From Ignavibacteriaceae bacterium (GTDB taxonomy: Bacteria > Bacteroidota > Ignavibacteria > Ignavibacteriales > Ignavibacteriaceae): 46,906 nt of DNA. Location of the stretch: the NCBI GenBank assembly GCA_014860115.1, contig JACZKK010000110.1:1-46906 (forward strand), in the 5' to 3' direction. Positions 2,016 to 9,374 of the stretch are shown here, piece after piece. The notes under the pieces are model-generated. The model ran no database searches, was not told where the DNA came from, and was given only the letters and a program-made list of their open reading frames with translations. Within the stretch, counting starts at the first letter, position 1, and every line of letters begins with the position of its first letter. Made by a program: the position numbers and the translations under genes.

Positions 2016-4232
<2,217 letters not shown>

Positions 4233-4242
4233 GAATATCTCA

Positions 4243-4302
4243 GCTGTCACGGACGACTCCGTGACAGCAGAATCAAGTCACGGTACGACCGTGACTTCCT
4301 TG
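4243..4302. repeat. Double-hairpin palindromic element, intergenic copy
   Basis: Two hairpins stand in tandem. The first pairs GCTGTCACGGA (4243-4253) with TCCGTGACAGC (4258-4268) around CGAC. The second pairs AAGTCACGGT (4275-4284) with ACCGTGACTT (4288-4297) around ACG. Both share the head GTCACGG. A second copy lies in frame inside the GNAT gene at 9274-9329. Over the 59 bp from 4244, the copies differ by three substitutions and one 3-nt gap, all in loops or the spacer, while both stems are identical. This copy sits between the katG stop and its terminator. Confidence 0.85.
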
Positions 4303-4311
4303 TGATTTGAT

Positions 4312-4336
4312 GGCATCTCCACGATGCCCTTTTTGG
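4312..4336 (+). terminator. Rho-independent terminator after katG
   Basis: GGCATC (4312-4317), loop TCCAC, GATGCC (4323-4328), then CTTTTTGG. The core, loop and tail nearly match the terminator at 6101, and the core resembles that at 1432. Confidence 0.75.
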
Positions 4337-4505
4337 TTTTAAAGCATAAAATATTTTTATGATGACTGAGCAATGCTAGAATTCCTTTTCAATTAAGGAA
4401 TGTAAATACGTTCTTATATCTTTTAGTTAGTTATTCATAAATTTGTAATGAATCATCCGTAGAAATATCAGACAATAATTATCAATAGGAAAATTTCAAA
4501 TAAAA

Positions 4506-6071
4506 ATGCCTCTGCCAATAAATATAGATGGATTAATCACTGGGAAAACTGTTGAATGGGAAAGAATTGAATTCCGGGAGGGATTTCATCCCGAACGATT
4601 AATTCGAACCATATGTGCTTTCTCCAATGATTTTAATAATTGGGGAGGCGGATATATAATTCTCGGAATTGCTGAAAATAACGGACTACCAGTACTTCCA
4701 CCCACAGGTTTACAGTTAAACCAGATTGATTCGATTCAACAAAATTTAAATCAATACTGTAGAAAAATTATTCCTAATTATTTCCCGATTGTAGAACCTG
4801 TTGATTTTCAGGGGAAGAAAATTATAATCATTTGGTGTCCGGGTGGGAGTAATCGCCCGTATAAAGCTCCTGATAGTTTGGGACAAAATCCGAATTACTT
4901 TTATTATATCCGACGATTCTCATCAACAGTTCAGCCAACCAGAGATGAAGAACGAGAACTAATTTTAATGGCTAACCAAATACCTTTTGATGACCAGGTT
5001 AACCATAACTATCAAATAAATGAATTCGATTTATCCGCAATCAAGACTTACCTCAATGAAGTAAATAGTGATCTTGAATACGAATTACCAAAGTTGACTA
5101 TAAATGAGATCACGAGAAGAATGAACATTGCAGAAGGAGCCAACGAATATTTATTACCTAAAAATGCGGGACTCCTTTTCTTTGCAAAGAATACCCAGGC
5201 AGTTTTTCCTTCTGCAAAAATTGAAGTAATATCATTCAGCGATGAATCGGGTTCAAATTATACTGAAAAAATATTTGAGGGTAATCTGCATCATCAGCTT
5301 CGGAGAGCACTTGATTATCTAAAAGACATGATTGTTAAAGAAAAGGTTGTTAAATCTGCTAAGAAAGCAGAAGCAGATCGATTTTATAATTATCCTTACG
5401 ATGCTTTGGAAGAAGCCCTTTGCAATGCAGTATATCATCGTGGCTATGACAACGATTCTACTATTGAAGTTCGAATTTATCTTTCAAGATTGGATATTAT
5501 CAGTTTTCCGGGACCGCTTCCTCCACTCGATAAAGAAAAGTTAAAGAAGAACCTATTTGATGTACGTAAATATAGAAACAGAAGAATTGGAGAATTCCTT
5601 AAAGAGCTTCATCTTACTGAAGGCAGAGCTACGGGCATTCCTACCATTATCAATGCCATGAAACGGAACAAATCTCCAAAACCAATTTTTGAAACTGATG
5701 ACGATCGTTCGTATTTCAAGACTTCTTTTAAAATTAATTCTTACTTTTTAATTGAAATTGAAAAGGAACGAAGTCGGGTCCAACTTGGGCCTAAGTTGGA
5801 CCTAAGTTGGGACCAAGTCAGCACTAAGTCGGCACTAAGTCGGCACCAAGTCGAGGAAATACTTCGGTTATGTGAAAATGAACAACCAATAACCGCTTTG
5901 ATGAATACATTTGATTGGAAAGACAGAACAAAGTTTAAGAAGAAATTCATTAATCCGATGTTGGAAATGGAGTTGCTTTCTATGACAATACCTGATAAGC
6001 CGCAAAGCTCTAAACAAAAATATATTACTACTGAAAAGGGAATAGAACTACTGCAAAGTGGAGATGAATGA
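4506..6071 (+). CDS. AlbA_2-domain / GHKL-ATPase-like putative regulator
   Basis: This 521-residue protein has the layout of the AlbA_2 (Schlafen-like DNA-binding) family, often annotated as RecG-like or transcriptional regulator. The N-terminal domain (about 15-150) has VEWERIEFREG and NWGGGYIILGI. A GHKL-type ATP-binding N-box is near residues 298-312 (EEALCNAVYHRGY), with a glycine-containing SFPGPLPP segment after it. A wHTH-like C-terminus follows. Between ATPase and wHTH, an 11-bp tandem repeat (5771-5847) encodes 11-residue units of pattern S-x-x-Q-[LV] starting around residue 423. It is a single gene with its own terminator at 6101. Variable Q-V repeats in this linker are common in the family, as I recall. 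Target DNA and ligand are unknown. Confidence 0.75.
   Translation: MPLPINIDGLITGKTVEWERIEFREGFHPERLIRTICAFSNDFNNWGGGYIILGIAENNGLPVLPPTGLQLNQIDSIQQNLNQYCRKIIPNYFPIVEPVDFQGKKIIIIWCPGGSNRPYKAPDSLGQNPNYFYYIRRFSSTVQPTRDEERELILMANQIPFDDQVNHNYQINEFDLSAIKTYLNEVNSDLEYELPKLTINEITRRMNIAEGANEYLLPKNAGLLFFAKNTQAVFPSAKIEVISFSDESGSNYTEKIFEGNLHHQLRRALDYLKDMIVKEKVVKSAKKAEADRFYNYPYDALEEALCNAVYHRGYDNDSTIEVRIYLSRLDIISFPGPLPPLDKEKLKKNLFDVRKYRNRRIGEFLKELHLTEGRATGIPTIINAMKRNKSPKPIFETDDDRSYFKTSFKINSYFLIEIEKERSRVQLGPKLDLSWDQVSTKSALSRHQVEEILRLCENEQPITALMNTFDWKDRTKFKKKFINPMLEMELLSMTIPDKPQSSKQKYITTEKGIELLQSGDE
5771..5856 (+). repeat. 11-bp tandem repeat inside the AlbA_2 gene
   Basis: Seven consecutive 11-mers are visible: AAGTCGGGTCC, AACTTGGGCCT, AAGTTGGACCT, AAGTTGGGACC, AAGTCAGCACT, AAGTCGGCACT and AAGTCGGCACC, followed by a partial AAGTCGAGG. 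Because 11 is not a multiple of three, successive units are read in all three frames, so the protein repeat is 11 residues per 33 bp. Gain or loss of one unit would shift the frame. GTCCAACTT and AAGTTGGAC within the first units also form a 9-bp inverted repeat. Confidence 0.9.
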
Positions 6072-6100: not shown

Positions 6101-6127
6101 AAGGGCATCACCACGATGCCCTTTTTG
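6101..6127 (+). terminator. Rho-independent terminator after the AlbA_2 gene
   Basis: AAGGGCATC (6101-6109), loop ACCAC, GATGCCCTT (6115-6123), then TTTGG. It is the third member of the recurring GCATC-loop-GATGC terminator type. The rest of the 265-bp gap to the next gene shows nothing I can name. Confidence 0.85.
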
Positions 6128-6335
6128 GTTATAAAGAAAACATTCCTTGAATCTGATTGTAGAGTAACCTAAGTTTCGATTGCAAATATGGGAGGAGTTT
6201 CCGAAAATGGTTATCGTTAGGGAGAATCGATGAATCTTACACTGCATAGATGGGGCCAATCTTAAAATAATTCCTGGTGAAAATTATTAGGAATGAAATC
6301 TTGAAATTGAATACTTTAACAATACATCTGTTAAA

Positions 6336-8702: not shown

Positions 8703-9374
8703 ATGAAAGTAGAAAATCTTTACAAAGAAAACATCCCCGAAGTCGCAGACGTATTATGTGAAGCTTTCTACGATTACCCCGTAATGAAATATGTTCTCGG
8801 AGATAAAGAAGATTACGATAACCGGCTTCGCAAAGCTGTTACATTCTTTGTTTCAGCAAGAGCTTTAAGAAAAGAACCTTTGCTCGGTATTTACAATTCA
8901 GAAAAAAAACTAGTTGCAGCAGCGGCTGTAACATTGCCGGGAGAAATTCCTTCACCACCGGAGTTGTTCAAACTTCGTGACAAACTTTGGGCTGAACTCG
9001 GCTCAAAAGAAAAAGCTCGTTATGATAATTACGGGAACGTGGCTTCCGGTTTACTTCCAACAGAACCTCATCACCATTTGAATATGATTGGAGTTAGAAA
9101 TGCATACCAGGGAAAAGGTTTTGCTCGTCAGCTAATCAACAAAGTGGAAGAATTAGTTTCAGAACATCCGAAAAGCGCAGGTTTAAGTCTCAACACAGAA
9201 GTTGAATCAAATGTTAATTTCTATCTTCATCTTGGGTTTGATCTTCTTGGAAAAGCAACTGTTGTTTCCCAGGCTGTCACGGACGAATCCGTGACAGAAG
9301 CAAGTCACGGTACAACCGTGACTTCCTTGAATGATGTTGTCACGTGGGGATTTTTTAAGGCGAGGAAAAAGTAA
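8703..9374 (+). CDS. GNAT-family N-acetyltransferase with an in-frame palindromic insert
   Basis: This 223-residue protein is a GNAT acetyltransferase, transferring an acetyl group from acetyl-CoA to an unidentified amine. Residues about 128-145 contain the acetyl-CoA pyrophosphate-binding loop (GVRNAYQGKGFARQLI), followed by the helix and NVNFYLHLGFDLLGKA, the usual beta-5/alpha-4 motif. The final strand VVTWGFFKA is typical. Oddity: residues about 190-211, between the last two strands, are encoded by a double-hairpin element almost identical to the intergenic copy after katG. Without this stretch, GKATVV would run directly into VVTWGFF. The insert keeps frame, is polar and Thr/Ser-rich, and falls where a surface loop is expected, so the enzyme may still fold. 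Confidence 0.85.
   Translation: MKVENLYKENIPEVADVLCEAFYDYPVMKYVLGDKEDYDNRLRKAVTFFVSARALRKEPLLGIYNSEKKLVAAAAVTLPGEIPSPPELFKLRDKLWAELGSKEKARYDNYGNVASGLLPTEPHHHLNMIGVRNAYQGKGFARQLINKVEELVSEHPKSAGLSLNTEVESNVNFYLHLGFDLLGKATVVSQAVTDESVTEASHGTTVTSLNDVVTWGFFKARKK
9274..9329. repeat. Double-hairpin palindromic element, copy inside the GNAT gene
   Basis: CTGTCACGGA (9274-9283) pairs with TCCGTGACAG (9288-9297) around CGAA. AAGTCACGGT (9302-9311) pairs with ACCGTGACTT (9315-9324) around ACA. Compared with the copy at 4243 it lacks three spacer bases and has three substitutions, none in a stem. It is translated as part of the acetyltransferase, resembling in principle the palindromic elements inserted in Rickettsia proteins. 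Confidence 0.88.

Follow-up and report, generated by a model that had tools for sequence, protein, structure and literature searches.

The GNAT acetyltransferase gene of this Ignavibacteriaceae bacterium carries an in-frame insertion of 63 nt that contains two short inverted hairpins. The hairpins belong to a repeat family dispersed among related genomes, where the same structures bracket the genes of one clade of RAYT-type Y1 transposases. We consider it likely, with a probability of roughly 85%, that the element is a REPIN of a GG-tagged REP family and that it was moved by a RAYT-type Y1 transposase not found in the bacterium's own genome.

Paired hairpins in the GNAT gene and behind katG

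The window, i.e., the whole stretch of DNA that was analysed, is 46,906 nt long. Hairpins were located with R1, a covariance model built from 41 distinct hairpin units of the own genome and its relatives. The features of the window are as follows:

2034..4232, + strand: katG-type peroxidase gene, upstream of the intergenic doublet copy (ORF; Pfam peroxidase, E 1.8e-70; the name katG is from the earlier note)
4242..4299, no strand: intergenic doublet copy, 9 nt 3' of the katG stop codon (R1 matches 4242-4267, +, and 4275-4299, -)
8703..9374, + strand: GNAT acetyltransferase gene with the 63-nt insert (223 aa, uninterrupted frame; Pfam Acetyltransf_10, _7 and _1 within residues 119-185)
9270..9332, + strand: 63-nt in-frame insertion, residues 190-210 (MAFFT alignment; boundaries taken from the alignment, to within a few nt)
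9272..9326, no strand: REPIN-like doublet of two inverted GG-tagged hairpins, GG ... CC (R1 matches 9272-9297, +, and 9302-9326, -, with E 4.5e-7 and 5.7e-6, both units having been among those used to build R1)
9272..9297, + strand: hairpin unit 1 of the GNAT copy (GG foot, 10-bp stem CTGTCACGGA/TCCGTGACAG, loop CGAA)
9302..9326, - strand: hairpin unit 2 of the GNAT copy, inverted (GG foot, read as CC at 9325-9326; 10-bp stem, 3-nt loop)

A sequence-only reading of this DNA had described paired hairpins in the GNAT gene that are nearly identical to a copy behind katG, and both doublets were found in these places. Each consists of a + strand unit followed by a - strand unit, with the stem core GTCACGG/CCGTGAC. 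In the GNAT copy, the GG at 9272-9273 is followed by the first stem and loop (9274-9297), the second hairpin (9302-9324) and the inverted foot CC (9325-9326). It matches the katG copy up to the TTG at 9329, the identity reaching 4302 in the latter, in which AG takes the place of GG in the first foot. Three substitutions and one 3-nt gap separate the two doublets, and our comparison reproduced the claim that all of these fall in loops or the spacer. The stem pattern occurred 7 times in the 3.93-Mb genome and the reversed control pattern 0 times, which together with the E values of the covariance model excludes a chance origin of the window doublets. An Rfam scan of the window gave 0 matches at the gathering score, and no T-run was found 3' of either doublet.

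The katG copy is absent after katG in the same-genus genome G002, and R1 has no match in the part of G002 where katG and the GNAT gene are located. The two genes lie close together there, so about 4 kb were either gained in the own genome or lost in G002. In the window, two terminator-like 33-nt repeats (4312-4344 and 6104-6136, 94% identical) flank an AlbA_2/Fic-like ORF (4506-6071).

The GNAT insertion is in frame and missing in relatives

Relatives of the GNAT protein were present in 5 of 59 genomes, including the own one, and a contig scan gave seven loci. The alignment comprised the own protein and nine rows, representing eight distinct genes as L032 and L197 are one gene and were counted once; the weak matches L033 (35% identity) and L034 (29%) were left out. 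The aligned relatives come from the same-genus genomes G002 and G004 and from records named Ignavibacteriales, BMS3Abin03, Lysobacterales, Gemmatimonas, Vicinamibacterales and Acidobacteria, with identities to the own protein from 73% down to 37%. All nine lack the 21 residues 190-210 at one exact place. The proposal that GNAT orthologues are without a segment near residues 190-211 was therefore confirmed, also for the distant relatives.

We regard it as hardly credible that the segment is an ancestral loop lost by the other relatives, its likeness to the katG spacer being secondary. Such a reading could appeal to the own genome being the only carrier seen and to the small number of aligned relatives (9), but these relatives represent several phyla and agree on one exact place, and the DNA of the segment belongs to a hairpin family with dispersed copies.

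The structure of the GNAT protein was modeled using AlphaFold2 with an alignment of nine proteins, giving a mean pLDDT of 91.9. The last two beta strands of the model are formed by residues 180-187 and 212-220, and the segment between them has no assigned structure, with pLDDT below 50 at residues 196-205. In the model, the 21-residue insert thus lies exactly between the last two beta strands and is predicted to be unstructured. This placement agrees with the sequence-only reading, as does the preserved frame of the ORF at 8703-9374. Since 63 nt is a multiple of three and no stop codon occurs through both hairpins, 21 residues were gained and the gene stays open; the protein presumably still works. 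Of the three plus-strand frames, two are open in every one of the four clear doublets of the own genome, and a doublet whose length suits will therefore often keep the frame open. As to the extent of the insert, the in-frame hairpin pair stood, while the net insertion (63 nt, 21 residues) turned out longer than the unit originally claimed. It also exceeds the 55-nt doublet, counted from GG to CC, by a surplus that is unexplained; with no relative closer than 73% identity, the junctions can be placed only approximately.

The doublets belong to a dispersed and patchy repeat family

The 41 units share a 10-pair stem in which 98.8% of the cells are paired. Six of the ten stem pairs have changes on both sides, and the covariation score is 0.319 versus a shuffled mean of 0.084. 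The family is characterized by a GTCACGG-type stem, two freely covarying outer pairs and an unpaired 5' GG foot.

R1 detected four clear doublets in the own genome, two in the window contig, one in contig C105 and one at C79:37515, and each of them consists of paired + and - matches, i.e., inverted REP pairing. Weaker signals were a decayed doublet at C79:1714 and single matches in C221 and C53. The genome therefore holds more than the two copies known from the window. At E 0.1, 24 of the 59 genomes, which are mostly drafts and include the own, had R1 matches, with 1 to 122 matches per genome; these numbers are not copy counts, as the palindromes are usually matched on both strands. A scan of 164 genomes for the doublet pattern returned nine positives including the own genome. 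Six of these (G076, G021, G012, G104, G137 and G154) were rejected as a single longer or unrelated palindrome.

The C105 doublet sits between convergent open frames and is present at the same place in G002, where it is split by another insertion. As it is common to both genomes, this copy is old. The presence of the C105 copy and the absence of the katG copy in G002 indicate that the family has old and younger copies. In G002 (L278, C1, ~1043588-1043790), about 140 nt of other DNA lies within the loop of the first hairpin of the equivalent doublet.

The relatives also offered a different kind of carrier. In G034 (L065-L089), an element of about 107 bp with terminal inverted repeats (TIRs) and TGTTGCAGAACT ends often lies inside CCTGCCGGTAGGCAGG-like palindromes, i.e., as nested mobile palindromes. 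Many hairpin copies of G034 are found inside this TIR-bounded element (21 copies displayed), and several elements show short direct repeats beside the TIRs, as judged by eye. The doublet could accordingly be the payload of a DDE-type MITE, moved by the transposase of the MITE and not by a RAYT. We consider this very unlikely as an account of the own copies, since those TIRs are absent from both window copies and from the C105 and C79 copies, the likeness between the own copies ends at the feet plus 2-3 nt, and by eye the hairpins of the other genomes displayed are without those TIRs.

Among 133 distinct hairpins, an open frame of at least 120 codons spans a few others besides the GNAT pair:

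L018, L027, L069, L084, L095, L101, L153, L154, L185, L188: hairpins spanned by an open frame of at least 120 codons

On close reading, L018 and L095 were rejected as in-frame copies, being a gene end and a stretch between genes. The hairpins of L154, L185 and L188 adjoin RAYT genes. In L185 (G131:C18, ~598-617), the RAYT unit of the clade described below appears to truncate a protease-like ORF (likeness by eye), with the hairpin in the last codons. The GNAT insert is the sole copy for which an in-frame position within a conserved protein was demonstrated. The idea that the palindrome is able to enter protein genes thus holds for the GNAT gene, which is the one case here.

The hairpins bracket a clade of RAYT genes

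The sequence-only reading had noted a resemblance to REP doublets mobilised by RAYTs. In the related genome G046, an R1 match lies just upstream of a Y1 transposase gene and a second, inverted one just downstream. A search of 164 genomes of the order for homologues of the G046 protein provided the clade, taken as 35 loci with at least 50% identity among the matches listed. Nine short fragments with at least 50% identity, also among the matches listed, were left out, as were L191 (35% identity) and L195 (34%), neither of which has an R1 match. Counted with a hand-typed subset of the R1 matches, an R1 match (E 0.01 or better) lies at most 200 bp from the gene in 24 of the 35 loci and on both sides of it in 14, and in 13 of these 14 the left match is + and the right one -. 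When the three loci that supplied R1 units (L170, L180 and L183) are removed, the numbers are 21/32 near the gene and 11/32 on both sides. Of the 11 clade loci without an R1 match within 200 bp, six contain a fragment of the gene, and in the other five a hairpin is present that has diverged and is missed by R1.

Two controls were negative. No R1 match at E 1 was found in 20 other class-2 RAYT loci (25-38% identity, same search), which were picked by hand from the match list with some second copies skipped, and no R1 hairpin was found in 34 other Y1 loci, in which the Y motif is mostly of another class. For the more distant RAYTs outside the order, there was an R1 match in 1 of 23 loci (L247, tandem hairpins). 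Several more distant RAYTs of the class and phylum (L247, L249, L251, L254, L265 and L266) have flanking hairpins with GTCACGG-, GTCAGG- or GTCGGG-like cores, so the GTC core is perhaps not confined to the GG-tagged clade.

In a tree of 52 rows, the 26 clade rows form one side of a branch with support values of 87/75, recovered in 88% of 200 bootstrap trees, which gives moderate support for the clade as one group. Three clade proteins were scanned and are members of Pfam Y1_Tnp, and the sole PDB match of the G046 protein at E 1 is 4ER8, TnpA-REP. In the same-genus genome G003, a clade RAYT with one internal stop is still flanked by hairpins.

The own draft genome gave 0 matches to the clade RAYT. 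By a hand count among the matches listed, a clade RAYT (at least 50% identity) is present in 6 of 24 R1-positive versus 1 of 35 R1-negative genomes (P 0.015). The other 18 R1-positive genomes, the own included, have no clade RAYT among the matches listed; G018 has a 32-residue fragment. The four Y1 genes of the own genome were rejected as mobilisers, as their loci (L041 and L090-L092) have no R1 hairpin. Near the own RAYT at C128 (L092, G000:C128:30200-34200) there are GTAG-tagged hairpins (GTAGGGATYGRTC TCCC ...), which are unlike the GTCACGG family. The RAYT hint was thus borne out in the relatives, where a clade RAYT is bracketed by the same hairpins, and not in the own draft genome.

These data also bear on a regulatory origin. 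The hairpins could be regulatory or terminator structures kept for the host and copied by recombination, with the GNAT copy as a chance gene conversion. The location of the katG copy just behind a stop codon, at a distance of 9 nt, would suit this explanation, and so would the old C105 copy, placed between convergent open frames and common to G002. We nevertheless find it very unlikely: the hairpins are linked to the flanks of one RAYT clade, with an R1 match in 0 of 54 control loci, the numbers of R1 matches are patchy among relatives (0 to 122), one copy is inserted into coding sequence, and the T-run is missing after both window doublets. Altogether, the reading of the doublet as a mobile palindromic element is supported by the relatives' gene without the segment, by the dispersed and patchy family and by the RAYT clade bracketed by the same hairpins.

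Most of the hairpins carry a GG foot

R1 cannot show conservation of the foot because its units had been chosen for a GG or AGC foot, and the foot was therefore tested with stem-only definitions. Among 52 GTC...GAC hairpins located at most 200 bp from clade genes (28 of the 35 loci), 38 have GG as the outward foot and 2 have it as the inward foot. The 88 distinct GTCACGG hairpins of all loci have GG on at least one side in 66 cases and on neither side in 22, while the GG foot expected from base composition is about 0.036 per side. Restricted to loci gathered before R1, GG is present on at least one side in 47/55 hairpins, and in 26/34 when G034 with its many near-copies is also removed. A relaxed hairpin finder detected hairpins in 4 of the 20 class-2 controls and in 0 of the 34 other Y1 loci; judged by eye, a GTAG foot was present in two of the four and a GG foot in none.

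The commonest foot is thus GG, two bases outside GTC, and not the 5' tag of the GTAG superfamily (GTAG or GT[AG]G). The family also differs from the CGTC superfamily, as the units listed have no unpaired CGTC end and a RAYT clade is linked to them. The stem letters vary between RAYT lineages, e.g., GTCAAGG, GTCACGA, GTCAGGG and GTCGAGG, and this variation is as would be expected if hairpin and protein diversify together.

Comparison with known systems

The published systems are compared here on the basis of excerpts of the cited articles. Like the GTAG REPINs or BIMEs of RAYTs (TnpA-REP), the elements described here are short, dispersed pairs of inverted palindromes with an unpaired 5' foot that bracket a Y1 transposase gene, and in both systems the hairpin letters differ between transposase lineages. 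Unlike in GTAG REPINs, the foot is GG, located two bases outside the stem GTC, and the stem core is GTC(A/G)NG(G/A).

Another close description is that of TnpAY1 subclass 2.6 (Bertels group 5), the genes of which are flanked by 'atypical secondary structures' according to Quentin et al. 2018 (PMC6006769). The clade RAYTs resemble this subclass, which is mostly from Bacteroidetes, with a median of 179 aa, the motif YIH[QN]NP and non-GTAG flanking hairpins that have copies elsewhere. Their length and their Y motif, which is of the YIHNNP type, fit the subclass. On the other hand, by eye the clade proteins mostly have [ST]HFH, not NH[LIV]H, and WM or WI, not WQ. The excerpted account of subclass 2.6, compared by description only, gives no GG foot or GTCACGG stem.

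In-frame REPs have precedents in other lineages. They are reported inside RAYT genes of subclass 2.4 (PMC6006769), and in-frame intragenic REP dimers of the GTAG and CGTC families encode 20-30 amino acids in protein genes (Di Nocera et al. 2013, PMC3733652). The GNAT insert is likewise an in-frame dimer, with neither a GTAG nor a CGTC tag. According to the same excerpt no linked transposase was found for the CGTC repeats, whereas the family of the GNAT element has one. That article does not contain the word Ignavibacter.

The sequence-only reading had likened the element to the Rickettsia palindromic elements (RPE). The likeness lies in behaviour, as in both cases a palindrome is translated as part of a gene in its reading frame (PMC3733652), while foot and lineage differ. 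Homology with RPE might draw on the CGTC repeats, including RPE-4 and RPE-6 by assignment, that the same source reports in Chlorobi, Bacteroidetes and other phyla. Those repeats end in an unpaired CGTC, in contrast to the GG foot and GTCACGG stem of the GNAT-element family, and we judge homology to be highly improbable. An 18-nt palindrome of Caldithrix abyssi, a species discussed beside Ignavibacteria, is dispersed like the GNAT element and was likened to REPs by its authors, but it has another length and the sequence AACCGTT..AACGGTT (PMC5317091, in the part excerpted).

Within the open-licence literature, no report on RAYT or REP elements of Ignavibacteria was found among the works listed, and none of those listed for GTCACGG, judged by title, described GTCACGG hairpin repeats. 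In the excerpts of PMC3534657 and PMC6902462, the overlap of terms with Ignavibacter was due to a CRISPR reference only and to an author's name. Therefore, with in-frame REPs known in other lineages, it is the GG tag and the host lineage that appear to be new.

A model for the movement of the doublet

For the preferred reading, a REPIN moved by a RAYT-type transposase, the following course of events can be proposed. The clade Y1 (HUH) transposase, of the RAYT/TnpA-REP type, most likely recognises the GG hairpins as single-stranded DNA. By analogy with TnpA-REP, it would cut beside the GG hairpin, and two inverted hairpins would form the moving unit. According to the excerpt of PMC8266576, the E. 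coli TnpA-REP depends on the GTAG foot and cuts REP in single-stranded form, at a CT next to the structure. The RAYT would then copy or move the doublet, and one copy would have entered the loop between the last two strands of the GNAT acetyltransferase, adding 21 residues to a gene that stayed open. We infer that the RAYT moves the doublet and that this movement happened in the ancestry of this genome.

Since no clade RAYT was matched in the own draft genome, the copies there are probably orphans left behind by a lost mobiliser; alternatively, the absence may reflect a gap in the draft assembly. REPs without a RAYT have been reported. REPs usually reach 100 or more copies per genome (PMC2817692, as excerpted), a number that the own genome falls far short of, and no target-site rule for the insertion was found.

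More tentatively, GG-tagged REPs could be a third REP superfamily. The clade RAYTs and their hairpins would have diversified together across Ignavibacteriales and perhaps beyond, the GG foot would pick the cleavage site instead of GTAG, and REPINs would occasionally become translated segments, here a tolerated 21-residue loop. This broader proposal is possible, and clearly less certain than the reading of the element itself.

With these results, a RAYT clade without GTAG repeats gains a defined REP consensus. More than two dozen natural RAYT/hairpin loci, with stem letters differing by lineage, make hairpin recognition and the choice of the cleavage site directly testable. The GNAT insert, for which the insert-free gene is available in relatives from several phyla, is a clean case of mobile DNA becoming protein.
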